NCBI GenBank assembly: GCA_001972305.1
Contig: BDDD01000272.1
Location: forward strand, 434,001-498,000
Direction: 5' to 3'
Length of the DNA: 64,000 nt
DNA from: Cephalotus follicularis
Lineage: Eukaryota; Streptophyta; Magnoliopsida; Oxalidales; Cephalotaceae
The notes beneath the pieces are model-generated. The model did not search any database and was not told the origin of the DNA. It worked only from the letters and a program-made list of their open reading frames with translations. This document shows, piece by piece, positions 24,274 through 63,400 of this stretch (within the stretch, counting starts at the first letter, position 1; the number at the start of each line of letters is the position of its first letter). Both the position numbers and the translations under genes were made by a program.

Positions 24274-24787
24274 TGTTGATGCGAAAAATCTCCTCAACAG
24301 TCCTCTGACGTGGAAAGATCTGATTTGTTAAGGAAAACCCTTCATTGCCTCGAAAGAAAGTATTTAATGAGTGTTGATCGTCTTCCCTGCACAAGGAGAA
24401 CAAAGAAATCGTAGGTCTAGGAAGGTTTACTCACGGGGACACTCCGATGCAAAAGATAGACAAGGCAGGAAGAAAAACAACACAAAGGTGCTTTAATAGT
24501 ACAAAAATGACGGACCTGTGTTAATTGTTTGATTCCCGTATTTATAGGAGATTATTGTAATTGCCTTGTTTGATTTTAGGAGGTGATGAGTGTTCCCCTA
24601 AGGAAATGCCGAGTATCTCGGCCATTTCCTTGATTCTCCACCGGATTTAGCGCCTGGACGTTATGGCGCATTATCTTCCCAGATTTTATGTAACGTTCAA
24701 CCACTTGTCTATGGCTCTAGACGACATCTGGCGTCTTTCCCCGAGGACACGTGACACTATTCTTTAAGTGGAATTTTTCCCACATCA
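24274..24787 (-). repeat. 3' LTR of the Retand-like element
   Basis: Starts TGTTGATGCGAAAAATC and ends TTTTTCCCACATCA. Immediately inside, on the minus strand, is a purine run containing GGGGGGGC (about 24790-24800) that would serve as polypurine tract. Confidence 0.9.
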
Positions 24788-25456
24788 TATGCCCCCCCGG
24801 TCCTTCTTCTTTGGCCGTGGCAGAGGAGGAGGAGCAGAGTTGAGAATTGTTACTCGGGCAGAGCTTCGTTACAGAGGTGAATTTAAACTGGCCGAGGATA
24901 AAGAACAGATGGTATATGGCTTTGAGCGGGGCTTGCCGTTTGTAGATATAATAGATCCAATCTTCAGTTGGGCCTGGTCTTGCGGCCCGAGTCGGGTATT
25001 GATACGACGTGACATGAAAAGCGTCATCTTTACGTCATATCTCTTTAATTAATTCCCATCATTGTGTCAAAGTTGAAAAGTTTTGCATGCTTTGGTCTTT
25101 TCGGTTCCCGCGCATAAAACCCTTCGTTTCTCGCGCCTGACTTGACAAGCCAATCTCCACCGTCCAGATCAACAGTGATCCAAAGGCCAGGAAGCAATCC
25201 TGGTTTCTATAAATTCCTTCTTTCTCTGTTGAGTGTCTCTTTCGCTCTCTTGCACTCTAGAATTCTAAAGCTTTCTGAGATTTTTTGTTTACCCAGTCTT
25301 CAAGATAATTTTCTTCTTTGATTCTTCGTCTTCATAATATCCAGATGAATAGTTCTATCTCTCTTGTTTTCATTTCTCTGTTCAAGTACCCATAGGTTTT
25401 TTCTTGTCCTCAAAATCTTCATCTCTTTCTCTTTCTCTCTATGCCTATCATCCGTC

Positions 25457-28112
25457 ATGGCCAGAATCAAGCAAACCAAGAGATATCTTAGAACTCCCGA
25501 GGAGGTAGCCCAAGCTAGTGGGGGGGGTTGCCATTGGCGAGCGTCCTCTGGGCCCTTAGGTAGACAAGGAGGTCACTGCTGCTGGTGCTCCCAACGTTGC
25601 CTCCACTGAGGCTGGGGTCCAAATCTTCAAGACTCATTTCGAGCAAAGTATACTGCGCCCGAGGAAGATGAAAGAATTAACTACAAAATTCTCTTTCCCG
25701 AGCAGCCTGGAGTATGAAATTCCCGACAATCCCTCAGTGATCACGGAGAGTAGGCCTGGCCTGTTCGTGGTATTCTCGGATGCTCTAGACCACGGGCTAA
25801 GGTTACCTCTCCCGACCTTTGCCATTAGCATCCTGAGGCATTATCAAATCCACCCGTCCATGCTTCAAGCTCAGTCCTGGGGGTTCATCATCGGCTTCCT
25901 AGTGAGGTGCTTGAAGACCGGGGTGATAGCTATAGTGGGGCTATTTAAAGAATTCCACACCATCAATGCCTCCCTAGGAAAGCTTGGCTTTTACTTTAAG
26001 TCTAGGGTGAGCCGGGCCAAGCTGCTGACAGAGAATACCAAGTCGGTCAAGGGTTGGAGAGGGAAATACTTCGTGGTCAAGAATCTCCCTGGCTTCATAG
26101 CCTGTCCATGGTGTGATACCATTGATACTGGGCGCCTGAATCAGAGGATAGTTCTGAGTGAGACTGAGAAGGTTGATATAGAAAAGCTTTTGGCCCTTAC
26201 TCCCGAGGACGTAAGCTCCCTAGTGTTTGAGGATCGCTTGCGTCGGATCGGGCTAAGTGGATCCATTGGTCAAGCCAATCGCCTGGAAGAAGTGGAAGAG
26301 GTCCCCGTGGGGGTAGAAAGAGAAAGAGGCCAAGGTGCCCGAGATGAAAATTTATCCTCGGCAGTTGTAGAAGGAGAGAGCCGTAGTGACATTTTCTCTG
26401 AATATTGCCTTTGTTTTTGTGTTATGCTTTGCATGCATTTCTAATCGTCTTTTCGTGACTTTTGTCAGAGATGACATCTCGCTTACCCACCATGAACATC
26501 CTGAGGGCTGGTTGGGAAAGTGCCCAAGCTACCATTCCCGAGGAGGCGAGACGAGAAGCTCTGAAAAAGAAAACGACGGAGGAGAGGGTTGCTGACTCAA
26601 AGAGGAAGAGGGCAGCCAAGGAAGTCGATGCCGCTGAGGAACGAGCTTAGGCTCGGCTGCTAAGGCAAAAGCTGATGCCCAAGATAAAGCCGATGTTGAG
26701 GCTAAGGCCCGGGCTCAGGTGGAGGCCGAGGAGACTAGGGCCGAGATTTCCCATGGAAAGAGACTCGTTGCGGACCCATTACCTCGTCCTTCAAGAAGGA
26801 AAAGAATAGCCGACGAGGGGGATGCGCCTCAGGGTGAGACTGCCGAGCCGAGCTCCCAGGATTCTGAGTTCCTTGATCCTCCTGAGGAGATCAACAAAAT
26901 AAGACAAATCTTGATGGAGCTGGGCAGCTCAAGTGTTAGTTGGAAGACACCAGGAGTTGCGATCGGGCTTGTTAGGTTAGGGCTCTTCCCTCCAGAGGTG
27001 GAGGTCAGACAGGGATGGTCCGTGGGCCAGTTATGGGCTCACGTCTTCCAAAGTAATTTCAGGGTACGTAACCCTTACTAATCTCCTCCATAATTAACTT
27101 CTTGTGCTCTTCTTTTAAAGTCGGGCTCCTTTTCCAGGCCATGGGTGACTCCTACTTTCTACTGGAGAAGTTCAAAGAGGTGGAGGCGTTAAACAAGTAG
27201 CTCGGGGCCGAGAATGACAAGGTTAAAAAGTCCTTGGACGCTACTCGTGCTCAGCTAGAGGAGGTGCTCGAGGCACAATAATCAATACAGGCATAGAGGA
27301 GGGCGGCTCTTGAGGAGTTGGCCATGGAGAAGAGGAGCAGGCTGGCCGTAGTTAATCACGACATCCAACTTGAAGGAAAGTGGAAGGCTTATGCTGAAAA
27401 GCTCGACAAGTTTGACGAGCTGGAGGGACCTCAGACTGCGGCTGCGGTGGACAGAGCAATCCTGGACTTCAAGGCATTCTCAGAATTTAAAGAACTGGTG
27501 GATGCTCGGATCGCAGCAGCGGTGGATGGAGCCATCTCAAACTTCAAGGCGTCCTCGGAGTTTCAGGATGCCCTAACCAATGGCATGGATAACTTTAGGG
27601 CCTCAGAGGATTTTTCCAATGAGGTCCTTAAGGAGTCCTCGACCCTGTTTCGTCGGGGGTTTTACACCTTCCGTAACTTGGTGGGTTGTCATCCTGAGCT
27701 TCCGTTGGACTCCATCATATGCGGTTCCTTAGTGACTGATTATGAATACCTTCCTGACGGAGTCAATGAGGCCTAGGAGGAAGCTTTTCAAGCCTATGAT
27801 GAGGAGCAAAGTCATGCTCAGGAACCTGAGTGGTCGCCTGATGGTCATGACATGGTCCCGTTCACTGATGCCGCCGCGAAGACCGAACATGAGCCTTTAG
27901 CTACGTAACCTCTTTCACTTCTCCTAGCCGAGGATCCAGCTCTTGAGCCAGAGACTATGGATCCTTCTACCGAACTTGTCGTAGATCCCTCTCCCCAGGC
28001 CGTGGCCAAGGAATCTCCATCTGCACCTACTCCCGAGGACCCCACTCTTGGGCCCGTTGCCAAGGATCCCCCAATTCCTCCAATTGTACATGATATCCCC
28101 TCAGGGGACGAG
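25457..28112 (+). pseudogene. Antisense ORF of Retand-like element (gypsy-type transposase-like domain)
   Basis: Runs opposite to gag-pol. It starts MARIKQTKRYLRTPEEVAQA at 25457. The main domain (25668-26380) contains FSNALDHGLRLPLP-like and ILRHYQIHPSMLQAQSWGFI segments and FYFKSRVSRAKLLTENTKSV, matching the plant 'putative gypsy type transposon' family (Pfam Transposase_28, from memory). A GT/AG-bounded gap follows, then Lys/Glu/Ala-rich sequence with coiled-coil character (26470-27080, 27318-27776) and an acidic, Pro-rich end near 28112. Antisense ORFs in this position are known in Retand/Grande-type elements; their function is unknown. It is a broken copy. The N-terminal six residues resemble the histone H3 tail. 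Confidence 0.8.
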
Positions 28113-30274: not shown

Positions 30275-32155
30275 TCAATTGATAAGTGGAGTCATCCAGT
30301 TTGGCTCCTGTGGTGCATATATGTCCATCACATCAATCTCTGAGATAGTGGGTCTATCCAGATAGTCCATTAGCACGGTTTGATTTTTCTGTAATTCCTC
30401 CGTTGTTGCTAGCTTGGACAACTGGTTTGCTAGGACATTTTCTGCTCTGGGCACCTTCAACATTCTAATCATTTGGAAGGCTTACTTCAAACTCTAAAAG
30501 TGTGCTATGTACTTAGCCATGGTATCTTCTCTAGCTTCATACTCCCCACTCACCAGACCAACTACCAGCTGAGAATCATTGGAGACTTCTATTTTTTGGA
30601 CCTCTAAGTGCTTTGCAATCGTCAGTCCAGCGATTAGAGCTTCCCACTCGGCTTCGTTATTTGTGGCCTTGAATCCGAATCTTAGAGCATACTCCAAGGT
30701 CCACCCATATGGACTTGTTAACACCAATCCTGCTCTACTTCCAGAGACACAGGATGAGCCATCCACGGATAACTTCCATAACCCCTTCTCTTCTTCAGAG
30801 GTGTCTTCTTCCATACACTCCGTAAGTGTATGATCTCCTAAAAAATCGGCCAAGACCTGTGATTTTATTGCTGGCTTGGCTTCAAACTTCACGTCATACT
30901 CACCCAACTCGACCGTCCACTTGATCAACCTGCCCGAAACGTCTGGCTTTGCTAGAACTTGTCTTAGTGGTTGGTCGGATAAAACCTTGATGGTATGGGC
31001 TTGAAAGTATGGCCTCAGCTTCCTCGCAGCTATGATCAGGGCATAAGAAAATTTTTCTACTTTTGGATACCTCCCCTTAGCATCGTTCAAGGCCTTGCTG
31101 ACATAATACACTGGCCTCTGAACTTTCTCCTCTTCTCTGACAAGCACTACACTCACTGCACCCGTTGTTGCCGTAAGGTACAAATACAAGTTTTTTCCAT
31201 CCTTAGGTTTTGAAATCAGATGAGGGGAAGCCATGTACTCCTTCAACTTATCGAAGGCTGCTTGACACTCATCCAACCAAGAAAATCCCTTGGGATCTCT
31301 CAATACTTTGAAAAAAGGAAAGCATTTTTCTGCTGATTTTGAAACAAACTTGCTCAGGGATGCTATTCTACCATTGAGTTTCTGTATATCCCTGATGGTC
31401 GTCTGAGGAGGCCTCATGCTCTGAACTGCTGAAATTTTCTCCAGGTTGGCCTCTATCCCTCTGCTTGAGACCATGAACCCGAAGAACTTGCTAGAGGTGA
31501 CCCCAAAAGTACATTTTGAAGGATTGAGCTTCATCTTGTATTTCCTCAATACTTCAAAAGTTTCCTCCAAGTCTTTAATGTGGGGACTCTTCACTGGCGA
31601 CTTGACGAACATGTCGTCAATATAAACCTCTATGTTTCTCCCGATGTGAGGTTAAAATATCTTGTTGACTAACCATTGGTAGGTCGCCCCAGCGTTCTTC
31701 AATCCAAAGGGCATGACTTTGTAGCAGTACATGCCTCTGTCAGTGATGAAGGTTGTCTTGTTCTCATCGGACCCATACATGGGGATTTGATTGTATCCCG
31801 AGTATGCGTCCAAGAAGCTTAACATTCTGTATCCGAAAGTCGCATCCACCAACTGATCAATCTTTGAGAGAGAGAAATGATCCTTCGGGCAAGCTTTGTT
31901 TAAATCTATGAAGTCGATACACATCCTCCACTTGCCATTTTCTTTCTTGACTAGGACCGGGTTCGCCAGCCAATCAGAATAGTGTACTTCCCTGATGAAC
32001 TCCGCTTGCAATAGCTTGCTCACCTCCTCGGCTATTGCCCGTTGCCTCTCGGGAGCGAAAATCCTTTTCTTTTGCTTGGTCGGAGGCCTCATAGGATCCA
32101 CGATTAATTTATGGACTGATCCCAGGGACCTCCTCTGCCAACCAAGCAAATACAT
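30275..32155 (-). pseudogene. Reverse transcriptase and dual RNase H region
   Basis: Reverse transcriptase motifs include RMCIDFIDLNKACPKDHF and [13 protein letters not shown] (31652-32155), with the connection and first RNase H in 30494-31612 (FFKVLRDPKGFSW, YLYLTATTGAVSVVLVREEE). A second RNase H-like domain follows (WKLSVDGSSCVSGSRAGLVL, FGFKATNNEAEWEALIAGL), which is diagnostic for the Tat/Ogre group. It copies element RNA into DNA in virus-like particles. Broken in a few places. Confidence 0.88.
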
Positions 32156-34718: not shown

Positions 34719-35231
34719 TGTTGATGCGAAAAATCTCTTCAACAGTCCTCTGACGTGGAGATGTTTGATTTGTTAAGGAAAACGCTTGATTTCCCCTAGG
34801 GAAAGTATTTAATGAGTGTTGATCGTCTTCCTTGCACAAGGAGAACAAAGAAATCGTAGGACCATGAGGGTTTACTCCCGGGACACTCCGATGCTAAAGT
34901 TAGACAAGGCAGGGAGAAAAACAACACAAAGGTGCTTTAACAGTATAAAAATGGCGAACCTGTGTTAATTTTTTGATTCCTGTATTTATAGAAGATGATT
35001 GTAACTGCCTTGGTTGATTTTAGGAGGTGATGAGTGTTCCCCTAAGGAAATCCCGAGTATCTCGGGTATTTCCCTGATTCTCCACCGGATTTGGCGCCTG
35101 GACGTTATGACGCCTTATCTTCCCAGATTTTGTGTAACGATCAACCACGTGTCTATGACTCTGGAGGACATCTAGCGTCTTTTTCCGAGGACACGTGGCA
35201 CTATTCTTTAAGTGGAATTTTTCCCACATCA
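34719..35231 (-). repeat. 5' LTR of the Retand-like element
   Basis: Starts TGTTGATGCGAAAAATC and ends TTTTTCCCACATCA, like its partner at 24274-24787. CTATA follows directly. Confidence 0.9.
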
Positions 35232-36095
35232 CTATATTTGGTTTGGATAGAGAGAGTTAAAGAAAAAAGTAAAGAAATGAAAGAGGGATAATTCATATCT
35301 CTTGTTTGAAAATTTATTATAGAGGAGAGGGAAAGAATAATAAGGAAACCAGTTTTCTCATTGTACTATTTTGTTATCCCTCTAAAAATAGAAAGATTAG
35401 GAGAGAAAGAAAAATTGGTTTAATAAATTTTTCAAAATACCTATTTTACCATAAAAAAATGTAATATAACTCTAGCAAAAAAATCAAAGAAATCACTAGA
35501 GATATAAAAAAAAAGTTGGTTTAATGAATTTTAAAATACTTATTTGATAATAGAAAAAACGAAAGGTAATTGTAACAAAAAATATCAAAGATATTACTAG
35601 GGGTATAAGGCTAACAAATATATATAATATTTTCATTTCCTTTCTTTTCTCCACTCTAAACAAACATAAATTTTTCATATTTTTTTCTTTTCTCTTCAAC
35701 TTATCCAAACAGAAAAAAATAATTTCTCTCTTTATCCGATCATTTCTTTTTCTTAGGTATTACCCATATATTTTCTTTTGTTTTTTTCTTCAAAAACTTC
35801 CAAACATAGTGTCGATAAATACTTGACAGTGAAGATTTTAAAATTAAAAAAAAGAAAGATAAAGAGAACAGAAAATAGGGTAGAGGTATCAAAATCCCCT
35901 ATGTGATAGAATAGATTTAGGCTTCGTTTGTTTGGAATAAAAGAACATACATTAGGAAAATAATTTCAACGAAACAATCCTACGTGAAAAACAATGAATT
36001 TTCCTGTTTTTGGTGTTCACTCTGAAAGATATTTTCCTCTGTTTAGTATACACTATGAAAAAAAATTTCTTAATAAAAAAAAGCCAATATATTTT
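35232..36095. other. AT-rich intergenic DNA
   Basis: Starts with the CTATA target duplication. A weak internal repeat is visible: AAATTGGTTTAATAAATTTT near 35411 resembles AAAGTTGGTTTAATGAATTT near 35510, each followed by similar sequence. No gene seen. Confidence 0.55.
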
Positions 36096-44800: not shown

Positions 44801-44851
44801 TTTTACGAAACTTATGTGTTTCAAACGTAAAAACTCGTTAACCTTCAATAT

Positions 44852-46680: not shown

Positions 46681-46693
46681 TTCACCCCTCCTT
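46681..46693 (-). promoter_or_regulatory. Polypurine tract
   Basis: AGGAGGGGTGAA on the minus strand directly precedes the 3' LTR; it would prime plus-strand DNA synthesis. Confidence 0.8.
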
Positions 46694-46725
46694 CGAGGAA
46701 TTTCATCCCCGAAATAAAGGCAGTA

Positions 46726-48600
46726 CTAGAACAAGTGAGAGTAACGCTCCCTCATCTCCTCTTCACGTTCCCAAGTTGCTTCTTCAGGACGGTGAAACTG
46801 CCACTAAACCTTTACCATAGGAATGGTTCGGTTCCTCAACACCTGCGTCTTCCAATCTAGGATCCGCACAGGTAACTCCTCGCAAGATAGGTCATCTCGC
46901 ACCGGAACTGAAGCAAAATCCAGAACATGCGAAGGATCTCGGATATATCCCCTCAACATGGATACATGAAAGACATCATGCACACCTGACAGTGCAGGAG
47001 GTACGGCAAGCTGGTAAGCCACCTCCCCAACTCTCTCCAGAACCTCAAAGGGACCGATGTAGCGTGGAGCTAACTTGCCCTTTTTCCCAAACCTCTGAAC
47101 GCCTTTCCACGGTGAAACCTTCAGGAACACATCATCACCGACGTCGAAGGTTAAAGGTCTTCTCTTGACACTGTCAACATAGCTCTTCTGTCGGCTTTGA
47201 GCAGCAAGCAGTTTCTCCTTTATGAACCTGACTTTCTCAGAAGTCTCCTCCACCAAGTCTGAGCCCAACAAAGGTCGCTCGCCAACCTCGTCCCAACACA
47301 AAGGGGACCTACACTTCCTCCCATACAGAGCCTCAAACGGTGTCATGCCAATACTGGAATGATAGCTGTTATTATAAGAAAACCCTATCAAAGGAATATG
47401 GTACTCCCAAGTACCAGCAAAATCAACAACACAAGCTCAGAGCATATCCTCCAGGGTCTGGATAGTGCACTCTGACTGGCCATCCGTCTGTGGGTGGAAA
47501 GTTGTGCTCAAGTTCAGCTTCGTCCCAAACGCTGTCTGAAACCTCTTCCAAAAGTTGGAAGTGAAGATCGAGTCTCTGTCACAAACTATACTCACAGGAA
47601 CACCGTGTAGTCTCACTATCTCCTTCACATACAACCGAGCCAACTTGCTCGCAGAGTCAGAAACATGAGTAGGCAAAAAGTGAGCTGACTTAGTAAGCCG
47701 ATCCATAATCACCCACACTGCATTGTGGCGGTTCCGAGTCAAAGGAAAACCCGAAACAAAATCCATCGTCACATGCTCCCACTTCCACTCTGGAATCGGT
47801 AGGGGCTGTAACAACCCTGCTGGCCTCTGATGCTCGGCCTTAACTATCTGGCAAGTATAACACTTCGCAACATAGTCCGCTATCTCCCTCATCATGACGG
47901 ACCACCAGTAGTTCCTTTTCAGATCTTGGTACATCTTAGTGCTACCAGGATGTATACTGTACTGAGACTTATGTGCTACATTCAACAACTCACTCCTTAT
48001 CCAAGCATTACTAGGAACGCACACTCGTCCCTTAAACCTCAGAGCACCATCAGCATGCAACTGAAACTCAGACTCTGGACCCAGATTCTCTCGAATCTCA
48101 AGCAACTCAGGATCACACAGCTGTGCATCCTTTATATGGTCCAGAAGCGCTGGCTGTGCACGAACACTTGCAACAAGGATCCCTGGTGCCCTGCAATAAG
48201 GCGACCATTTCTGGAAGTCCTCCAACAACTTCCACTGAGACACCATGGCATTGGCAACCATGGCCTTACGGCTTAGGGCATCCGCGACAACGTTCGCCTT
48301 CCATGGATGGTACTGAATATTGCAGTCGTAGTCATTAAAGAACTCAACCCAACGACGCTGCCTCATATTCAAATCATCTTGACTGAACAAATACTTCAGG
48401 CTCTTGTGATCGGTAAAGATCTCAAACTGTGCTCCATACAGGTAATGTCTCCATTTCTGAAGAGCAAAAACGATAGCTGCTAGCTCGAGATCATGAGTCG
48501 GATAGTTCTCCTCATACGGCTTCAGCTTCCGCGAAGCATAAGCGATCACCCTGCCTCGTTGTATCAACACGCAACCCAGGCTCTTGCCGAAGCATCGCTG
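46726..48600 (-). pseudogene. RNase H, integrase and chromodomain region
   Basis: RNase H ends with IFTDHKSLKYLFSQDDLNMR and QRRWVEFFNDYDCNIQYHPW (48200-48440). The integrase zinc end is at about 47830-47960 (HPGSTKMYQDLKRNYWWSVM ... CYTCQIVKAEHQRP), the DDE core starts at WEHVTMDFVSGFP and includes FHPQTDGQSECTIQTLEDML, and the C-terminal part (46804-47391) has YGRKCRSPLCWDEVGE and VHDVFHVSMLRGYI. The tail IRDPSHVL ... LRNRTIPMVKVQW, EEATWERE is a chromodomain, which in chromoviruses directs insertion by binding chromatin. Interrupted copy. Confidence 0.9.
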
Positions 48601-49577
48601 TACACTGTAAAGCCCTAATTACCCTCGGGTAATGCCAGAATAGGAGCGGAGATCAGCCGATCCTTCAGATCACAGAAATTGGTTTCACAATCATCATCCC
48701 AAACAAACAAGGTCTTCTTCTGAGCCAGCCTTGTCAAAGGTACTGCTATCCTCGAGAAGTTCTGGATGAACCTCCGGTAGTATCTCGCCAAGCCAAGGAA
48801 ACTACGTACCTCCGTCACATTTCTCGGACGCGGCCAATCTCGCACCACCTCGGTCTTCGACGGATCCACCGCCAAACCCTCTCCAGACACGATGTGACCC
48901 AGGAAGATCACATGGTCGAGCTAGAACTCACACTTACCAAACTTAGCAAACAACTTATGCTCTCGGAGAGCCTGCAAAACTAACCTCAGATGATAGACGT
49001 GCTCTTCCTCACTCCTTGAGAACACCAGTATGTCATCTATAAACACCACCACAAACTGATCCAGATACGGTCGAAACACGTCGTTCATCAGGGACATGAA
49101 CGCTGCTGGTGCATTGGTGACACCAAAAGGCATTACCAAGAACTCATAGTGACCATACCTCGTTCGGAAAGCAGTCTTCTCTACATCTCATTCCTTCACC
49201 CTCAGCTGGTGATAACCCGACTTCAGATCGAGTTTGAAAAACACTCTCGACCCTTGCAGGTGGTCAAACAAATCCTCGATATGGGGAAGAGGATATTTGT
49301 TCTTGATAGTCACCTTATTCAACATCCTGTAGTCGATACAAAGCCTCATCGACCCATCCTTCTTCTTCACAAAAAGCACTGGTGCACCCCACGGAGAAAC
49401 ACTGGGTCGCACAAAACCCTTATCGATTAAATCTTGCAACTTCAACTTCAACTCTCGCAACTCCGCATGAGCCATACGGTAAGGCGCCTTAGAAACAGGA
49501 GCCGTACCCGGTACCAGATCAATTACGAACTCCATACTCCTCTTTTGTGGTAAGGACACTAGATCTGGAGGGAACAC
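48600..49577 (-). pseudogene. Reverse transcriptase region
   Basis: Motifs in order on the minus strand: [40 protein letters not shown] (49188-49577), [20 protein letters not shown] and [19 protein letters not shown] (48921-49139) with the catalytic D-D pair, then [20 protein letters not shown] and [14 protein letters not shown] (48615-48911). This is a standard chromovirus polymerase. It contains a few breaks. Confidence 0.92.
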
Positions 49578-50077
49578 ATCCGAAAACTCACAACAGGAAC
49601 CTCCTCCAGACTCTTGCCTTTCTCCTTCCTTTTGTCAACCACATCCGCGAGGAACCCTTCGCACCCTTTTTCCAGATACCTTGATGCACGAATAAAGGAT
49701 ATAATCGGCATCGAGAAGCCTCTGTCTCCCTGGAACTGAGAAGTAGTCCCATTAGGCAAGTAAAGATCCACCACCTTGTTGTAACAGTCCAACTGTGCAC
49801 GATAGGTTGACAACCAATCCATACCCAAGATAACATCAAGGTCATAGAGGGGTAACACGATCAAGTCTGCACACAACAAAACACCTGCAACAGAAAGCTC
49901 ACAACCTCGGTACACCGAGTCTGCACACAAAGAACCTCTAAAAGGTGTGCTCACATCAAGAACAAAAGGCATACAAACAGGAGACACATCCAAACATGAT
50001 GCAAAACAGGAAGCAATGAAAGAATATGACGCTTCTGAGTCCATCAAAGCTCTAGCAGAGAAACCATAAACATACAC
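49559..50077 (-). pseudogene. Protease region
   Basis: YGFSARALMDSEASYSFIA corresponds to the aspartic protease active-site segment, followed by VLLCADLIVLPLYDLDVILG and MDWLSTYRAQLDC, the usual flap and second conserved block before reverse transcriptase in Tekay-like elements. It would process gag-pol. Confidence 0.85.
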
Positions 50078-50145
50078 AGTACCTCACACAACAGAAGTAG
50101 ACTCTGGAACCTTTGTCTAAGTGAGAACAAAAACTCTACCCTTCA

Positions 50146-51321
50146 CTATGCCTTTGCCGGTATCTCTTCGCTGTGACAGTCCTGTGCAGAAGTACTACCA
50201 CTAGCTGGCCCAGTGGGTACTATCGTCGTTCCTCTCGGGCAATCCCTCACGGAGTGCCCCGCTGTGCCACACCTCAAACACAACCCTTTCTTTGCCCAAC
50301 AGTCTTTCTGCTGGTGACCTGTACGACCACAGTGAAAGCAAACCCCAGTCCTCGCATCACTCCCCTGACTAGGAGCACCCTGTGAAGCTGTCTGCTGAGA
50401 CCTGTTCCTCGGGGACTTCGTCGGGGAACCACTGCCCTGCCACTTTGACGATGCGGGTCTAGACTGATTCTGTGTCTGCCTGCTCTGTTGTGCTCGGGCC
50501 CTCTCAGCCCTGTCTTCATTCAATACACTTTCCAACAGCCTTGCTTTCTGGGTAACCTCCACAAAGGTACCAAGCTCCATCACTCTAATCCGAGACTGAA
50601 GATCTGGTCGCAAGCCCCTCAGAAACCTCCGAATCTTCTTTTCCTCATCTGTCACCAAATAGGTTGAATGTCTGGCAAACTCAACAAACCTGGCCTGGTA
50701 CTCGGCCACAGTCATCTCCCCCTGACGTAGCTCCAAGAACTCCGTCTCTCTCCGCTCACGCTCAATGCGTGGCACATACGCATCCAGAAACTCCTCTTGG
50801 AACCCCTCCCATGTGCCTACAACTCCAGTATCCTCCCATTTAGCACTGACCATCTCCCACCAGTGAGTGGCCTCTCCCCATAAACGGTACACAGCAAACC
50901 TCAGTTTCTGCCTGTCAGTACACTCCATCACCTCGAAGATCTTCTCAAGGTCCTGTAGCCACCTCTCAGTGGCGGTAGCATCCAACTCTCCCCTGAAACT
51001 GGGTGGATTCTGTCTCATGAACCTCTCTAGGTTTCTGCCAAACCAGCTACCATCATCATGCACACACTGAGCTGGAGCCATCGGCTGAGGCTGAGCTTGA
51101 ACATACAACCTCCGCATCTCCTCAATATTCACTACATTAACGGCCATCTGTTGCTGATTAGCAGCTATCTGCTGCTGGATATTGTCAGTGATGCGGTCCA
51201 TCGGATCTCTCACATTCGGTACTGCCTCCGGTGGAGCATTATGATCTCCTCCAATATTCACTTCCTCAGGGACATCCTCATTCACGGCCCTACACCTTTC
51301 GCGCCTTCTCCGACCGTCCAT
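50146..51321 (-). CDS. Gag of the Tekay-like element
   Basis: A 391-residue frame starting MDGRRRRERCRAVNEDVPEE. It has an N-terminal Gln-rich helix (about residues 45-80), the retrotransposon gag domain (FMRQNPPSFRGELDATATER, WLQDLEKIFEVMECTDRQKL, ETEFLELRQGEMTVAEYQAR, residues about 90-260), a Ser/Gln-rich linker, and two CCHC knuckles (CFHCGRTGHQQKDC and CLRCGTAGHSVRDC, about residues 330-365) that bind element RNA. Length and order are normal for the Tekay clade. It looks open from start to end; the link to the protease frame was not followed. Confidence 0.92.
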   Translation of the reverse strand: MDGRRRRERCRAVNEDVPEEVNIGGDHNAPPEAVPNVRDPMDRITDNIQQQIAANQQQMAVNVVNIEEMRRLYVQAQPQPMAPAQCVHDDGSWFGRNLERFMRQNPPSFRGELDATATERWLQDLEKIFEVMECTDRQKLRFAVYRLWGEATHWWEMVSAKWEDTGVVGTWEGFQEEFLDAYVPRIERERRETEFLELRQGEMTVAEYQARFVEFARHSTYLVTDEEKKIRRFLRGLRPDLQSRIRVMELGTFVEVTQKARLLESVLNEDRAERARAQQSRQTQNQSRPASSKWQGSGSPTKSPRNRSQQTASQGAPSQGSDARTGVCFHCGRTGHQQKDCWAKKGLCLRCGTAGHSVRDCPRGTTIVPTGPASGSTSAQDCHSEEIPAKA

Positions 51322-51413
51322 AGGTTCCTTTAAGAAAGATGTGATTAGTCCTATTGAGAAAACATGTTAATTGCCGAGGATAGTATCCAAGCTAAGCATA
51401 TACATAGATATAT

Positions 51414-51425
51414 GCTCTGATACCA
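51414..51425 (-). promoter_or_regulatory. Primer binding site, initiator-Met type
   Basis: TGGTATCAGAGC on the minus strand, four bases from the 5' LTR, is the standard complement of the 3' end of plant initiator tRNA-Met. Confidence 0.92.
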
Positions 51426-51429
51426 CTAC

Positions 51430-53720
51430 TGTCACACCCCGCTTGCATTAACAACATACAACATGGTAAATTAATAAACATCCAACTTCTACAGAGAACG
51501 ATAAAACTTAAAACTTTTAATCAGACATCAAACTTGCGGAAGCATTTATATATATAAGCTGAAAGCAAACGGAACCATGCGTCCCATACCACATGATTCC
51601 CACAACATCCACAGCAAAACATACTTAAAAAGCCCGCAAACGGAGCGTGATCCAAAGGTCGATACAACAACCACATAAACATTAGTACATGAACCAAAGT
51701 ACAACATGTTTACACACTGCTTTACAAAACACTTAAAGCATAAAACTCCATCACTTCACTGTCTGATACGGCCATGCCCGTCGATATCCAAAACACAGCA
51801 TCAATCTGCAACAGTAGGGGGTTAGCCTTTGTCCTCACTCAGCCAAAGTCATAAAAGAAACATAAGATCAACAAAACCAAAGTATGAATGCAACAGATGC
51901 AGTACATACTATATTTCGATGCACATATATATATATATATAGATATGCATATGTCAAACCACGATGTCACGATGTCACAGTAATCACGATTCACAGTCTC
52001 AAACAAGTCCAAAGGACTACACAAAACACGGTTCACGATGGGTACGAAGAGCGTCGCCAACTCCTGGCCCCAATGTCGTACATTCCGTCATTGGCCCCGA
52101 CTCTGGACGGCACGAAGCAAGGTCACAATGCAGTGAGTCACCCAGCCAACTCCTAGCCCCTGAGTCGACCCGACCACATGTCATCGCTAGCATCTCCACC
52201 ACGCAACTAGTACGGCCACAATCAGCAATCACAGTCAAGCTCAATCACAATCACAATCATCTCGATGCTCAAAACAGTTTTTCAAATAATTTATAAAACA
52301 AAATACTTGAAAACAAATTCATTTTCACGATGTCACGGTTCTCGGTTCTCAATATCATAAAACTCGGTTCACGGTGTTTTTGGAAGTCATTTTCACGGTT
52401 CAAAAATATATAATTTCTCAAAACATACATTTTCGTGTAAAGTAATGATTTACATTAAACTACAATGCATTTCCAGAAAAGTGATATAACAGTTCAAACT
52501 CAATAATAACAATGCTCAAAACAGTTCATAAAGCTTTACAAAGCAGCTCATCATAATATACGATGCATACACATGTTCACAAGGCAAAACAGGCCCTAAT
52601 AGTCGGCTGCCTCCCACTGACAGTCGGTTGTTCCCCTCAAAACAGTCGGCTGCCCAACCCAGGCAGTCGGCTACACACTGGACAGTCGACTGTCTCTCTC
52701 GATAGTCGGTTGCTCACTCTCGACAGTCGGTTGCTCACTCTCGACAGTCGGATGTCCCTCAGGACAGTCGGCTGTCCACACCCAACAGTCGGCTACTGAC
52801 CTACAGCAGTCGACTACACAACCTCTGCAGGCACTTCCCAGAGACACACATGGGCAGTCGACTAGCCTCCCAAGAACAATCGACCGGACCCATTAAACAG
52901 TCGACTGTCCAACACAGGCAGTCTGCTGGATTCTGCAGAAGATGTAGAAAACAGCAGCTATCAAGCCACAAGACACTCCCAACTAAACCCAAAATAGCAC
53001 ATTTATGCAACAACACATTCCAGGCTCACAATATAACACAAACATGCATTTTGTTTCATGGAAAACATTAACAGTTGAAATTAAGCGCAAAAACGACTTT
53101 CCCCCTAACTTAGAACTCCAAGTTAGGAGCTACAATCCACCTCTTTAAGTCCAAATCCGAGGCTTTTGCACTCCTCAACCCGTTCAGCAACCTCCACTGG
53201 TCCGGTTCCTCCAAGCCCACGGTTCCACACAAAGCTCCCTATATCCACAACACACACACACACTTTCACTCCATTTTCTCTACTTCAAACACACTTAAAC
53301 TCTCTGAGAAAGATGGAGATTTGAGAAGGAAAGCTTGTGTTTTTATGGAGAAACCCGGGCCCCCTCTCTGTCTCTGCCATATAAAGCCAACACCCCATTT
53401 TTGTCACTTCAAGCCTGACAGCACGTGGGCTATCTGACGCCTGGCAGTCGGTTGCCATGACTTGGCAGTCGGCTGTTTCTGAAGACACCCACACCAACCG
53501 GCTGTTTCCTCACAACAGCTGGCTGCCGCCCCTCAGCAAGGGATCCAGTCGGCTGCTTCCCTGAGGCAGTCGGCTGCCCCCTGCACAGAAAACACACCAA
53601 CACACTTTCTTGCAACTTTTCAACACACAAAAGAGGGAAAACACGGTTCTCATTAACACAAGGTGTAAAATTACATTGGAAAAGCAAAATTACACTTTAA
53701 CAAAAACCCCGGGCGTTACA
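51430..53720 (-). repeat. 5' LTR of the Tekay-like element
   Basis: Plus-strand ends TGTCACACCCCG and GGGCGTTACA. It contains a TA microsatellite near 51925 and two clusters of CAGTCGGCTG/CAGTCGACTG words at 52595-52930 and 53440-53580. On the minus strand, GGCTTTATATGGCAGAGACA (about 53370-53390) places a TATATGG box that could be the core promoter. Confidence 0.92.
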
Positions 53721-56700: not shown

Positions 56701-58221
56701 GGGCTTCACGGCATGGCAACCCATGTGTAGAGAGCCATCGACGGAGGGTCAGTGAAGAGGGAACCGGCTCCTTTCCGGTTGTTCTATAACTAGACATTGC
56801 TCAATGCTTTCAATTCTGCTTCAACAGTGTATTATGCAACTGATATAGAAGGTCATGATTTAATGCATTTTCTATTATTGTTCTTGTAAAGCGTGCCCTG
56901 ACATGAGGACATTGTTGTATAGCAAAACCAGTGTATGTATAGTCACGCGGACGTGGATACTTATGGACAGATATCTGAAATGAAGTCAAAGCTGCAGGAT
57001 TTTGATTCACGAGGAGTCCTCGATATATGTAATGTTTTGGATTATAGGTCTTCGCTTGTTTTCATTTGTAATAATTGAATGCCAACTTTTTCACGTGGAG
57101 CCGACGTGAGGTGTGGTATTAAAGGTATTTTAATTTCTCTGTTATGAAAATGACTTTTTTAGTTTTTATAATAAATAGAATTAAATTTATATATAGAATA
57201 AAGTATTTTTTTTAATTTATGTGTTTTTATTATTAAATATTGAAAAGCATTTTATCTTTTATCTTAAAATAATTATTAATAATTAATAAACAGATGAATT
57301 AATGTATTTGATTAATGTTCATAATCAAAGAATAAAATACATATTATCATAATAAATATATTAGAGTGTTTTTTATACCAAAACACATGAATTAAATTAT
57401 ATTTTATTCATTTTATTATTATTTAACCTCATGTAGATAATTATATAAAAATAGAAAAGAAAAAAAATGAGAATTATATTTATTTTAAACAATAATTTGA
57501 TATTTGTAAAAAAAAATAATGAAAATATAGGGATTACAAATAAAGCAAAATGTATTAAAACATATTAAATAAAATAAAATAAACGATTACAAAAGAAAAC
57601 GAAAAGATAATATAATATAATATAAAATGAAAATGATTATTCTTATTTTTTTTTTTACACCTTACAATAATTTTTTTTAAAGATTTATTTTTTACCGATC
57701 CATAGATGGATTTGATGTTATAATGGACCGTGTATTCTAAATTTCAAACTTCTACCTTGCATTATATACGGGTGTACGAATAACTTTCCTCGTTTAATAT
57801 ACTAGCTTTATTATTACTAACATTTAACCGGCATTATATGCCATATTTGCATTAATACAATTTTAAATCATACAGATCTATATAAATATTGAATATAAAA
57901 AAAAAACTTAAATTGCAACTATCATATCTTCATAAAATCATATAAAAGAGAATATGATTTCTTTAAATATAAATAATGGTAAATTCATTCAAATTATAGA
58001 ATTAACTAATAAAAACTCATTTTTTAAAAAAATTATAAGAGGTGAATAATGGGACAGAAAAAATCTTAGCACAATTGTAGAATTATCTTTTATATTATGA
58101 AAATATATTTAAAGAATTAGAATAATATAACAAAAACATATATTAAAAATAAAAATTATATGAAATTCATGCATAAACATATAAAATAAAAAATATATAA
58201 TTAACATATTTACATAAGATC
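53726..58221. other. AT-rich intergenic DNA
   Basis: The sequence resumes after the AATAT duplication. Around 53860-53920, AATGAACTTTTACAAAACTT and nearby text resemble 44790-44830 on the other side of the insertion, so both sides may be one non-coding part of the CACTA element or a local duplication. An isolated exon-like stretch lies at 54276-54383. Bases 54600-55090 hold scattered TTAGCCAC / GTGGCTAA-like words. Bases 55100-56600 and 57100-58220 are very AT-rich with no gene. Bases 56640-57060 are richer in GC, with a 66-codon minus-strand frame (56810-57010) that I do not recognise. Confidence 0.55.
54276..54383 (+). other. Possible last exon, acidic C-terminal tail
   Basis: After TTTTGTTATAG, a good acceptor, the frame DHPATDDPAISYKSDKDDSE, HIESMGDEKDFDNDK ends in TGA at 54381-54383. 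The acidic composition suits a protein tail, but no upstream exon is recognisable. It could belong to a truncated host gene or be chance. Confidence 0.35.
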
Positions 58222-58731
58222 TGTTGATACAGAAATCATCTACTCAATAGTATCTCACGTATAGGACTTTGATTTGTTGAGAGAAACACTGTGAAAGCTC
58301 CGAGAAGAAAATGAGGATGGTGATGTAATTGTATTCCATGCACAAGTTAGCAAACAAATCGTAGGTCCATGAGGGTTTACTTCCGGGGACACTTTAATGC
58401 TTAAGTTAGATAAGGCAAGCAAGAATGCAATCACATGGTGTTTTAGTATATGAAAATGACTGACCTGTGTAATATCGTTGATTCTTGTATTTATAAAAGA
58501 TGATTGTAACTGTCTGTTTGACTTTCGGAATTGATATGTGTTCCTTTAAGGAAATACTGAGGATCTCGGTATTTCCCCTGATCTCCACCTGATTTCTCGC
58601 CCTTGGCGTTATGGCACGTTATTGCTTCAAATTGTAATGTCTGACCACGTGTCTGTGACTCTAGTGGACATCTGGCGTCACGACCCGAGGACACGTGCCA
58701 CTATTCTTTAAGTAGAATTTTTACCATATCA
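58222..58731 (-). repeat. 3' LTR of the second Retand-like element
   Basis: Starts TGTTGATACAGAAATC and ends TTTTTACCATATCA, 510 bp. It shares long blocks with 24274-24787, including CCGAGGACACGTG and CACTATTCTTTAAGT. A purine run on the minus strand next to it (GGGGGACAT, about 58733-58742) is the likely polypurine tract. Confidence 0.88.
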
Positions 58732-59305
58732 TATGTCCCCCTGGTCTTCATTTTTGGAGTTTGGCAGAAAAGGAAGACCATTATGGCCTGGCTTCATTCC
58801 GAGCGGGGCTTATTGTCCGAGGACGTGATGAACCAAGTCTTTTATTGTACTTGGTTGTTTGGCCCAACTATTGCATTTAATGTGATGCAATAAAGCAAAC
58901 AAAAACGCTCCAATTAATGATAATCATTGCGCCGAAGTTGAAGGGGTTTTACACGCTTGTCTTTTCGATTCCCGTGCATAAGCTCTTCGTTTCCTGCACC
59001 TGACTTGACAGGGCGATCTCCACCGTTAAGATCAAAAGAGATCCAAAGGTTAGAGTGCAGTCCAAGGTTCTTTAAATACCCCCCTCTTTTGAATGTGTTC
59101 TTTTTACGCTTCCCTGCTTTCTAGAACCCTAAACTCTCTGTGAAAACCTTGCTCTTCCGGTCTTAAAATTTTCTTCGTTTCTTCGTCGCATAGAATCTCA
59201 GGTAATCTTAACTTTTTCACACCCTTTTGATCGATTGTTCAAAGGCTTTTCCAGGCTCCTGTTCCTTTGTCTCTCTCTCTTTCTCTCCTATTCACCAAAA
59301 CATCC

Positions 59306-60283
59306 ATGGCAAGAACAAAGCAAACCAAAAGGTTTATTAGAAACCCCGAGGACATACCCCGAGTGACAGGAGGGGTTACTATGGCCCATCATCCCCTTGA
59401 TGCGGTGGTGGAAATGGAAGCCACTGCTGTGGGCGCTCCCAACGTTGCTTCGACCGAGGCTGGGGTCCAAGTTTTTGAACAAAGCAAGCTTCGCCCGAGG
59501 AAGGTGGGGGAGCTTGTCAAAGAATATTCCCTCCCTGGCAACTTGGATTATGATATTCCCGACGATCCCCAAATGGCCACAGAGAACAAGCTCGGCTACT
59601 TCGTAGTGTTCGCGGACACTCTGGAGCACGGACTGAGGCTCCCCCTGCCGTCCTTTGCTGTAACTGTCCTAAGGCACTACCAAATTCACCCATCGATGCT
59701 CCAGGCTCAATCTTGGGGGTTTATCATCGGCTTCTTGGTAAGGTGTTTTGAGTCCGGGGTGACAGCCACCATGGGGTTATTCAAGGAATTTCACACCTTA
59801 AGCTCCTCTCCAAACAAACGTGGCTTCTACTTCAAGTCTCGCGCATGTCAAAAAAAGCTATTGGCGGAGAACACCAAATCGGTCAACAGCTGGATGGGGA
59901 AATACTTCATGGTCAAGAATCTCTCCGGCTTCATGCCCTGTTCATGGTGCGATACCTTGGACACTGTGCATCTTAATCAGAGGATAGTTTTGATCAGGCC
60001 TGAAAGGGCCGACCTGGGGAGACTTTCTACCCTGGCGCCCAAGGAGGTGAGCTCTGTGGTCTTCAAGGATCGTTTGCGCAGAGTTGGGCTGAGCTTGTCC
60101 CTAGGACGTCGGGTTCGCCTGGAATTTGAAGAGGAGATCCCCTTAGGGATTAGAAGAGAGGGGGGCCTGGATGCCAGAGATGAACCTGCATCCTCGGCCA
60201 CTATCCAAGGAGAGAGTTGTATTATGCTTTCCCTTGGATTATTTTTAATTTGTCTCTATTCTTTGTTTTTGATGTGCTTCTAA
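59306..60283 (+). CDS. Antisense ORF of Retand-like element, N-terminal exon
   Basis: Open from the ATG at 59306; an in-frame ATG at 59267 exists, but 59306 matches the start of the homologue at 25457. It begins MARTKQTKRFIRNPEDIPRV. The domain at about residues 65-240 (EYSLPGNLDYDIPDDPQMAT, GYFVVFADTLEHGLRLPLPS, FAVTVLRHYQIHPSMLQAQS, WGFIIGFLVRCFESGV, FYFKSRACQKKLLAENTKSV) matches the plant 'putative gypsy type transposon' family (Transposase_28, from memory). It has a W/C/D-containing segment CSWCDTLDTVHLNQRIVL. The coiled-coil C-terminal half seen in the other copy is absent because the CACTA fragment follows. Function unknown. The first six residues after Met equal those of histone H3. 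Confidence 0.8.
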   Translation: MARTKQTKRFIRNPEDIPRVTGGVTMAHHPLDAVVEMEATAVGAPNVASTEAGVQVFEQSKLRPRKVGELVKEYSLPGNLDYDIPDDPQMATENKLGYFVVFADTLEHGLRLPLPSFAVTVLRHYQIHPSMLQAQSWGFIIGFLVRCFESGVTATMGLFKEFHTLSSSPNKRGFYFKSRACQKKLLAENTKSVNSWMGKYFMVKNLSGFMPCSWCDTLDTVHLNQRIVLIRPERADLGRLSTLAPKEVSSVVFKDRLRRVGLSLSLGRRVRLEFEEEIPLGIRREGGLDARDEPASSATIQGESCIMLSLGLFLICLYSLFLMCF

Positions 60284-60485
60284 CCATGGGCACGGCGAGG
60301 GCAATTAGTGCCCTTGCCGTGTATTTTGAAAATGGTGAGGGCATGGCGAGGGTACTAGTGCCCTTGCCATGCCTTTTTTTATAAAAACAAAAAACAAAAC
60401 CCGGCTCAACGGCGAGGGGATTCAAGCGCCCTCGCCATGCCCTTGCCATCTACCCTCGCCATTACCCTATTTTCTTGTAATTCTA
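60284..60485. mobile_element. CACTA end fragment
   Basis: Dense GGCGAGGG(C/T)A and TGCCCT(C/T)GCC words in both orientations, as at 40822-41110, ending TATTTTCTTGTAAT, a decayed form of the CACTA terminus TTTTCTTGTAGTG. No matching terminus is visible on the left, so it is the end of an element that lost its other side, or a small derivative whose arrival removed about 3 kb of the host retroelement. Confidence 0.7.
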
Positions 60486-63400
60486 GGAGACTGTACACCA
60501 ATCTCCACCGGTATCATAGCTTCAGCTCCAAAACAAAGGCTGTATAGGGACTCACTAGTTGTGGTCCGATGAATGGTTCTATAAGCCCATAGTACACTTG
60601 GTAGCTATTATGTTCATCTTCCCTTACTATCCTCAAGGCGCTTCTTCAAGCCCGAGATGATTTCTCTGTTGATCACCTCGACTTGACCATTACTTTGGGG
60701 GTAGGCTACCGAGGCTAGTCTATGCTCTATTCTCCATTCTTTACAAAAATCACGAAAAGCTTGACAATCAAACTGCTTCCCATTATTTGAGACTATTACT
60801 CTCAAGACTCCAAATCTACAGATGATTGATTTCTAAACGAAACTCTCCATGTTTTTCTTCTTGATTGTAGCTAGGGGCTCGGCTTCTACCCATTTGGTGA
60901 AGTAATCCACTACAACAATCAAATACTTCCTCTGCCCAGTTGCTACTGGAAGTGGTCCGACGAAGTCCATCTCTCACTGTGCAAAGGGTCAAGGGGCCGT
61001 GATAGACGTTTGAGGCTGTGAAGGTCTTCTGCTTATGTTAGCGTTCCTCTGACATTTATCACATTTCCTCACTAAGTCTATGGCATCATGGTGCATGATC
61101 GGCCAGAAATAACCCTGCCTCAACAATTTGTGGGACAAGGTTCTGTCCCCCGTGTGACTACCACAGACTCATTCATGGACTTCTCTTAGAGCATAATCGG
61201 TCTCTAGGGGAGTCATACACCTCAGGAAAGGGAAATAAAAAGACCTTTTGTAGAGGATCCCATCTCGGAGTTGGTATCTATTTGCTCGGTACACCAGTTT
61301 TCTCGCTTCAAATGGGTCCTCGGACAAAATTCTGTTCCTCAGCCAATTGATAAACGGAGTCATCCAGTTTGGATCCAATTGTGCATCTATGTCCATCACG
61401 TCTACTTCCGAGATGGTGGGCCTATCCGGATAGTCCATCAGCATTGTTTTATTTTTCTGCAATTCCTCCGCTGTTACTAACTTGGACAACTGGTCTGCTC
61501 AGGCATTTTCTGCTCTGGGTACCTTCAAGACTCTAAGCACTTGGAAGGTCGACTTCAAACTCTGAATATGTACTAAGTACTTAGCCATGGAATCTTCTCT
61601 GGCCTCATACTCGTCACTCACCAAACCAACTACTAGCTGAGAATTACTGGAGAATTCTATTTTTTAAACCTCTAAGTGCTTTGCAATTGTCAGCCCGACG
61701 ATCAAAACTTCCCACTCGGCTTCATTGTTTGTGGCTTTGAATCCAAATCTCAGAGCATATTCCAAGGTCCACCTGTCTAGACTAGTCAACACCAACCCTG
61801 CTTCACTGCCAGAGACGCAGGATAAGCCGTCCACGGATAACTTCCACAACCCCTTCTCTTATTCAAATGTGTCTTCTTCCATACACTCCGTAAGTGTATG
61901 ATCTCCTACAAAATCTGTCAAGACCTGTGATTTTATTGTTGGTCTGGCTTCGAATTTCACATCATACTCGCCCAACTCGACCGACCACTTGATCAGCCTT
62001 CCTGAGACATCTGGCTTTGCTAGGACTTGTCTTAGTGGTTGGTCGGACAGGACCTTGATGGTATGTGCTTGAAAGTATGGCCTCAACTTCCTTGCTGCTA
62101 TAATCAAAGCATAAGCAAATTTTTCTACCTCTGGATACCTCCCCTCAGCATCATTCAAGGTCTTGCTGACATAATATACCAGCCTTAGAACTTTCTCCTC
62201 TTCTCTGAAAAGCACTGCACTCACTGCACCCGTTGTTGCCGTAAGGTACAAATATAAGTCCTATCCGTCCTTAGGTTTTGATATCAAAGGAGGGGAAGCC
62301 ATGTATTCCTTCAACTTGTCGAAGGCTGCTTGACATTCTTCCGACCAAGAAAATCCCTTAGGATCTCTTAATACTTTGAAAAATGGGAGACACTTCTCTG
62401 CTGACTTTGAGACAAACCTGCTCAAGACTGCTATTCTTCCATTCAACTCCTTTATATCCCTGATGGTTTGAGGAGGCCTCATGCTCTAACTATTGAATTT
62501 TTCTCCGGATTGGCTTCTATTCCTCTGCTTGAGACCATGAACCTGAGGAACTTGCCAGAGGTGACCCCAAAAGTACACTTCGAAGGATTGAGCTTCATTT
62601 TATATTTTTTCAGCACCTAAAAAGTTTCCTCCAAGTCTTTAATGTGGGGACTCCTTGCTAGCGTCTTGACGAGCATATCGTCAATATAAACCTCCATGTT
62701 TCTCTCAATCTGAGGTTCAAAAATCTTGTTGACCAACCGTTGGTAGGTCGCCCCAGCATTCTTCAACCCAAAGGGCATGACTTTGTAGCAATACATGCCT
62801 CTATCAGTGATGAAAGCTGTCTTATTCTCATCGGGCCCATACATATGGATTTGATTATACCCCGAGTATGCGTCCAAGAAGCTTAACATTTTGTATCCTA
62901 AGGTCGCATCCACCAACTGATCAATCTTCGGGAGAGGGAAGTGATCATTCAGGCAAGCTTTGTTGAGGTCTGTGAAGTCAATACACATCCTCCACTTGCC
63001 ATGTGCTTTCTTGACTAGGACCAGGTTCGCCAGCCAGACAGAATAGTGCACTTCCCTGATGAACCCCGCTTGCGATAGCTTGCTCATCTTCTCGGCTATT
63101 GCTTGTTACCTCTCGGGAGCGAAGTTCCTTTTCTTTTGCTTGGTCGGAGGCCACATAGAATCCACGCTTAATTTATGGACCATCACCTCTGGGCTGATCC
63201 CAGGGACCTCCTCTGCCGACCAAGCAAATACATCATTGTTATTTTTGAGGAACGTTATAAGTTCCTCTTTCTCCACCTCTCCAAGTTGTGAGCCAACTTG
63301 GATAATTCTTTTTTCATTGCCCACCTCCAAGGGCACTTGTATAACTTCCTCAATAGGCTGTGGACGCTCGGGCTCCACATCTCCCCTTAGCTCCATATTT

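Follow-up and report, generated by a model that had tools for sequence, protein, structure and literature searches.

The ORF at 59306 of the 64-kb window (the whole stretch of DNA analysed here) raises the question of why a protein encoded by an apparent retroelement should start like histone H3, and whether the likeness arose by chance, by descent from a histone gene or by selection. Nucleotides 59306-59326 read ATG GCA AGA ACA AAG CAA ACC, which gives M-ARTKQT, and KRFIRNPED follows. The H3-like start claimed for this ORF in the preliminary description was confirmed in the sequence, and the homologue at 25457 does share the start with one change, reading M-ARIKQTKRY. The features of the ORF are:

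59306..60283, + strand: antisense accessory ORF, 325 aa; Pfam PF04195 Transposase_28, E 2.9e-10, aa 100-165
59309..59326, + strand: ARTKQT, encoded by codons 2-7 and matching residues 1-6 of mature histone H3 exactly (sequence, selection tests)
59327..59350, + strand: codons 8-15, KRFIRNPE, a second conserved block, weaker and not H3-like; the third family described below has other sequence there
59603..59800, + strand: TRP28 domain (Transposase_28, PF04195), from Pfam

The last ~25 residues of the ORF are probably read-through into an intron. A single-sequence AlphaFold model was uninformative (pLDDT 35.8), and a PDB sequence search with the 23-residue N-terminus gave no match, the query being too short for this to mean much. 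No relatives were confirmed in viral and prokaryote contigs, a result that says little about plants.

The ORF is antisense to pol in a putative Retand-type element

The window carries a second element with a homologous antisense gene. The parts of the two elements are:

58219..58780, no strand given: LTR-like stretch, 74% alike to the LTR of the 24.3-35.2 kb element
62617..63087, − strand: reverse transcriptase fragment (RVT_1, E 7e-25), assigned to the 59306 element by assumption
25457..26444, + strand: antisense gene of the second element, homologous to the 59306 ORF; it starts M-ARIKQTKRY and has a broken frame in its tail
26383..26468, + strand: probable GT..AG intron following the first exon of the second element's gene (alignment)
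24274..24790, no strand given: second element, LTR on the 3' side when read in the element's sense, 90% identical to 34719-35235
30494..32155, − strand: two ORFs of the second element, with its reverse transcriptase and RNase H
34719..35235, no strand given: second element, LTR on the 5' side when read in the element's sense, 90% identical to 24274-24790

The stretch at 58219-58780 is probably the 3' LTR of the 59306 element, judging from its sequence, in which case the sense of the element would be the minus strand and the partner LTR would lie outside the window. Because reverse transcriptase is on the minus strand and the LTR-like stretch is at 58219-58780, the ORF at 59306 is placed antisense to pol, in the interval from pol to the 3' LTR. 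The element type was assigned by this architecture, namely PF04195 on the + strand, RT/RNase H on the − strand and an LTR-like stretch beyond. The same arrangement, with a TRP28 (PF04195) ORF on the strand opposite pol in the stretch that separates pol from the 3' LTR, is described in passages of Vicient 2025 (PMC11963269) for Retand-lineage elements, among them maize Grande, rice RIRE2 and Silene Retand. The paper covers 122 clusters from 34 species. According to the same passages, antisense TRP28 ORFs occur in all but two clusters of Retand elements and in 97% of the recently active clusters, with 4,800 Retand copies in Silene and 15,904 in maize, and the role of the ORF is given as unknown (PMC11963269). 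The words "histone" and "ARTK" are absent from the main text of that paper, and the H3-like N-terminus is the part that is new here compared with its description of the lineage.

Inspection by eye of 25457-27776 suggested that the antisense gene runs on downstream of TRP28, crossing two gaps that look like introns, to a part that is charged and resembles a coiled coil; the comparison across copies covered the first of these gaps. At 60290-60480, again by eye, GC-rich imperfect repeats (gcccttgccatgcc and similar) come after the ORF, at the place taken in the second element by its next exon. Retand elements are reported to have tandem repeats in the region after the antisense ORF.

The H3-like start is abundant in the genome

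A codon pattern for ATG plus ARTKQT matched 2,551 sites (1,278 + 1,273) in the window's own 1.577-Gb genome, compared with 0 + 2 for the reversed control pattern in the same genome. The R2 codon was written MGN in the genome pattern, so AGY was also admitted. The next two codons were [KR] and then MG (Arg, or Ser via AGY) in 1,210 of the matches, and Ala, or Ser written TCN, and then MG (Arg by the first two bases only) in 751. Only 14 of the 2,551 matches continue with ARK, the class where true H3 genes fall, and true H3 genes were therefore rejected as the source of the genomic matches. The K4R form followed by [KR]R was matched 6 times, against 1,210 times for K4.

Five of the 14 ARTKQTARK matches have element-style AGR codons, and two of these (L159 and L160) were read. 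L160 has an F1-like tail and begins MARTKQTARKTITPEE, that is, MARTKQTARK, which is nine residues of H3 including K9 (the domain lies outside the stretch read), and L159 joins its ARTKQTARK match to a related but broken tail.

Codons 2-7 are under purifying selection

The copies compared, all from one plant genome, were picked for the selection tests by the downstream TRP28 domain, independently of the N-terminus. A search of the genome with the TRP28 region of the window ORF gave 13,250 candidates, of which 150 matches were scored and 90 of the 150 read. We added 20 of 150 Pfam-model matches, hand-picked to span the list (10 of a second family, F2, and 10 distant). Before codons were counted, L014, L047 and L058 (unrelated DNA in place of the tail), L118 (tail deleted) and a duplicate of the window copy were dropped, and the counts rest on 97 copies, including the second element of the window.

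The preliminary description had proposed comparing codons 2-7 with the twenty that follow, and codons 2-7 proved the more conserved, with pN/pS of 0.12 versus 0.46 in 97 copies of one genome (0.121 with a bootstrap range of 0.095-0.147 for codons 2-7, and 0.459 for codons 8-27). The values elsewhere were 0.203 for codons 8-12, 0.359 for 13-15, 0.538 for 16-64 and 0.295 for 65-249. A tree was made from 95 copies (two further duplicates were left out) using codons 16-249 only, and parsimony was used to assign the changes of every codon to its branches. For codons 2-7 this gave 1 replacement and 27 silent changes on internal branches and 44.5 and 33.5, respectively, on terminal branches (Fisher P 2.8e-7 with rounded counts), and the internal N/S was 1/23 both in F1 alone and on branches with support of at least 0.9. 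The corresponding internal counts were 56.5 N and 60.5 S for codons 8-27, 120 N and 125 S for codons 16-64, and 235.8 N and 348.2 S for the domain; terminal counts were 541.5 N and 310.5 S for codons 16-64 and 1178.3 N and 914.7 S for the domain. The terminal N:S ratio of codons 2-7 did not differ from that of codons 16-64 (P 0.22), and terminal changes per codon numbered 13.0 in codons 2-7, 17.4 in codons 16-64 and 11.3 in the domain. Since the terminal N:S is like that of codons 16-64 and the terminal rate is not below that of the domain, codons 2-7 are not unusually cold for mutation; they are under purifying selection, with neutral decay at the tips. When all six-codon windows were ranked, 16 of 243 had no internal replacement, 15 of them in the domain, and codons 2-7 came 17th; none of those 16 matched the 27 internal silent changes of codons 2-7, the maximum being 18.

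These data bear on three other accounts of the likeness. The first is chance: the preliminary description had cautioned that six residues could agree by accident, and this was rejected by the genome count, by pN/pS and by the changes placed on the tree; ARTKQT is found in F1, F2 and F3 (see below), and 2,551 matches stand against 2 for the control. The second is that conservation acts on the nucleotides, through start-codon context, a sense-strand signal or the youth of the copies. Element copies are alike by descent and GC after ATG makes a favourable start context, but the silent sites of codons 2-7 are highly variable (pS 0.57; GCA/GCC/GCT/GCG, ACA/ACC/ACT and AAG/AAA are all common), and this synonymous variation, with the 27 silent changes against 1 replacement on internal branches, refutes the explanation, which we hold to be the least probable of all. 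The third is that the element captured a fragment of a histone H3 gene and that the match is a functionless relic. A few elements do read ARTKQTARK, but likeness to H3 is not seen past about residues 6-10 and purifying selection is not expected of a relic; a histone fold after the tail was not found, Pfam giving only Transposase_28 in the window ORF and in L006. The selection test thus makes a relic very improbable.

ARTKQT is kept in three families but not in a fourth

In F1, 88 copies had the six codons aligned (three replaced tails included), and ARTKQT was exact in 49 and carried one change in 32. The ten copies of F2 (L109-L118) have the same start as F1 save for L118, which is deleted, and L111, which is damaged; ARTKQT is exact in 6 of 8 and has one change in the other 2. 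F3 was found via L005-L007, which were among eight genome-order-first matches selected for ARTKQT, and the set of F3 and F4 copies came from two domain searches with F3 members (150 matches scored in each), from which 20 + 20 upstream stretches were taken by rank. F3a copies mostly begin MARTKQTAR[PS]SPPLEVEPLAMVV. Of 19 F3a copies, 14 have ARTKQT exactly and 5 differ from it by one change; in a twentieth, L136, the start is replaced. F3b copies begin MARTKQTSRSSPPLDVEPLAMV, with 7 exact and 3 with one change among 10. Across F3 the residues after ARTKQT are mostly [A/S]R. pN/pS in F3 was 0.099 for codons 2-7 and 1.20 for codons 8-10. The window ORF is identical to F3 at 73 of 136 positions of the domain (54%) and at 17 of 54 in residues 8-64 (31%), the latter a weak likeness that was reached by 3 of 300 shuffles. 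Although domain and tail have diverged between F1 and F3, ARTKQT and R9 are common to both, which indicates that these residues outlived most of the tail.

F4 (L149-L158) mostly begins MASQEQ[ST]SGSSSSSPLAVEPLAMVV, and ARTKQT is present in 0 of 10 copies. This family came from the lower-ranked half of the picks in the second F3 domain search and is called related by domain and tail; it keeps the following tail (PLAVEPLAMVV) like F3, with ASQEQ[ST] standing in most copies where F3 has ARTKQT. From the sequences, ASQEQ[ST] may represent either a natural loss or the state before the gain. ARTKQT was likewise not seen in the ~520 bases upstream of ten distant TRP28 matches (L099-L108), which are among the better-scoring PF04195 matches of the genome. 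Since F4 lacks ARTKQT and none was seen upstream of the distant matches, the motif is not needed by every TRP28 element. The expectation that it would recur across family members therefore held in part: the H3-like residues are specifically conserved in the tested copies of three diverged families, with free synonymous change, but not in F4, and they were not seen in the ~520 bases upstream of the ten distant matches.

Start codon, promoter and gene structure

A free H3-like N-terminus depends on the ATG at 59306 being the start used, as the preliminary description had assumed. In the window copy a stop lies in frame upstream of 59306 and no ATG stands between the two, so an internal Met was rejected for this copy. 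Of 29 F3 copies, 16 carry a TAG immediately ahead of the start position; all 16 are F3a, and the ATG is intact in 15 of them; the adjoining TAG means that no in-frame upstream extension is possible in those copies, and the start is thus fixed in 15 of 19 F3a copies. No ATG of any kind occurs in the 90 nt upstream in 42 of the 83 F1 copies with an intact ATG. An adjacent ATG (MM) is present in 14 copies of F1 and F2 together. The assumption is less secure in 8 of 9 F2 and 9 of 83 F1 copies with an intact ATG: these 17 have an in-frame ATG 42 nt (14 codons) upstream and remain ambiguous, and if the upstream ATG were used, ARTKQT would be internal in them. In every one of these 17 upstream ATGs the base at −3 is C or T and that at +4 is A, C or T. 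At −3 of the main ATG, 77 of 83 F1 copies carry A or G and 9 of 9 F2 copies carry C, so context gives the F2 main ATG little favour.

A candidate promoter element was recognized from the sequence upstream of the ORF:

59071..59078, + strand: TATA-like TTTAAATA, at a distance of 235 nt from the ATG

Of 68 F1 copies, 43 have a site of this kind 180-300 nt upstream, and both dinucleotides of the intron-like GT..AG at 26383..26468 are retained in ~80% or more of 71 aligned sequences. The TATA-like site and the intron-like GT..AG would fit a gene with its own promoter, and the gene of Grande is reportedly credited with its own promoter in the title of a paper on that element.

A putative mimic of the H3 tail around lysine 4

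In our view this ORF is probably an antisense TRP28 gene belonging to a Retand-type LTR retrotransposon, and the six residues after Met have probably been selected to imitate the H3 tail in the region of lysine 4. The main rival takes the N-terminus to be a short basic tail that serves nuclear import or DNA binding and resembles H3 by coincidence. The block conserved in F1 and F2, ARTKQT[KR]R.[IV]R, is strongly basic, and the exact hexapeptide ARTKQT (49 of 85 F1 copies) is little ahead of KRFIRN (45 of 86). F1 conserves codons 8-12 too, so a basic tail may account for some of the signal in that family, and for a relative, Grande, nuclear location and predicted DNA binding are reported in excerpts of PMC11963269. 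Nevertheless, F3 keeps ARTKQT without the KR.IR block, and a basic tail leaves the holding of T3, Q5 and T6 unexplained: in H3 numbering, T3, K4 and T6 were never replaced on internal branches and Q5 was replaced once, and each of the four collected 2 to 8 silent changes there. The H3K4 position is K in 94 and R in 1 of 97 copies, whereas position 8 varies (K in 83 and R in 12 of 96, with 2 internal replacements). The constancy of T3/K4/Q5/T6 and the rarity of K4R fit a ligand of an H3-binding pocket better than a plain basic tail, though the rarity of K4R may come partly from mutation bias. We consider the basic tail unlikely.

A little less likely again is that the exact N-terminus is selected for something else: it might, for example, act as a degron, be modified by a methyltransferase or kinase, or make contact with Gag or the TRP28 domain of the same element. 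The selection seen on codons 2-7 says nothing about the ligand, and F4 does without the motif; on the other hand, identity to H3 at 6 of 6 residues, and at eight or nine in some copies, would be unlikely for an unrelated site.

The protein is most likely, as judged from its sequence, an H3K4-region mimic that would dock on readers or erasers of the H3 tail. It would be transcribed from its own internal promoter. The initiator Met is cleaved when Ala is the next residue, an established rule, and its removal here would expose A1-R2-T3-K4-Q5-T6; the tail peptides concerned are ARTKQTKRFIRN and ARTKQTARPSPP. Plants can also acetylate an N-terminal Ala, which would block many H3 readers and counts against the mimic reading. 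The exposed tail would enter the pocket of a nuclear H3K4-region reader or eraser, for example a PHD finger or an LSD1-type demethylase, and the TRP28 domain may anchor the protein to the element or at some other nuclear site. H3 residues 1-4 are a main ligand of PHD fingers. Because PHD fingers bind these residues, the UHRF1 PHD finger binds the H3-like PAF15 and VIM proteins keep a PHD, we judge the H3K4-region mimic to be the best reading.

The likeness of PAF15 and DPPA3 to H3 is only partial, and both are host proteins, whereas here the carrier is a retroelement and residues 1-6 are identical to H3. The PHD finger of UHRF1 is described as recognising 1-ARTK-4, and its affinity for the H3-like start of PAF15 is close to that for H3, with Kd values of 2.2 uM and 1.5 uM, respectively (PMC7060239, in part). 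PAF15 thus resembles the present proposal in having an N-terminal H3-like sequence; according to the same part of that source its N-terminus binds a PHD finger as H3 does, whereas for the present protein binding is a proposal. DPPA3 is bound by the same finger, according to a portion of PMC11187062, and the Arabidopsis VIM proteins retain the PHD, except VIM6, according to a portion of PMC8594673. Another genetic parasite with an H3-tail-like sequence is influenza A, in its NS1 protein (PMC12937675, in part), but the NS1 mimic is C-terminal and described there for H3N2 influenza, whereas the one proposed here is N-terminal and belongs to a plant retroelement.

The likeliest benefit to the element would be permissive chromatin at its copies, obtained by recruiting or titrating such a factor, although the direction of the effect is a guess. 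The VANDAL elements of Arabidopsis are DNA transposons, unlike the present LTR retrotransposon, and we know of no histone-like tail in their VANC proteins. Our guess that anti-silencing is the likeliest purpose is by analogy with VANC, a plant transposon accessory protein that counters host silencing (PMC10398659, in part); for the present protein such an activity is only proposed.

The broadest form of the proposal is offered tentatively, and we hold it less firmly than the selected imitation itself: a plant LTR retrotransposon group may encode, antisense to its replication genes, a nuclear DNA-associated protein with a free N-terminal H3(1-6) mimic that captures H3K4 readers or erasers and steers the chromatin of its own copies, the mimic being absent in some families (ASQEQS) and extended to ARTKQTAR[K/P/S] in others, in the manner of an arms race. 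A selected H3-tail start would offer the antisense TRP28 gene a concrete role, contact with the H3K4 reading or erasing machinery; if true, one genome would harbour a histone mimic in roughly two thousand or more retroelement copies, with F4 as a natural non-mimic group and a built-in control. No report of an H3-like start of the antisense TRP28 protein was found among open-access papers, judged mostly by title and the start of the abstract, and the sole match to MARTKQTK in that partial search was a Chlorella centromere paper. As far as searched, histone mimicry and the antisense TRP28 gene are each known and their union is new.

The window also contains a separate LTR retrotransposon at 44846-53670, with long direct repeats that are 85-97% alike and ~7 kb apart. 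Its gag is at 50146-51321 (− strand), and ORFs at 46804-48366 (− strand) resemble pol by eye.
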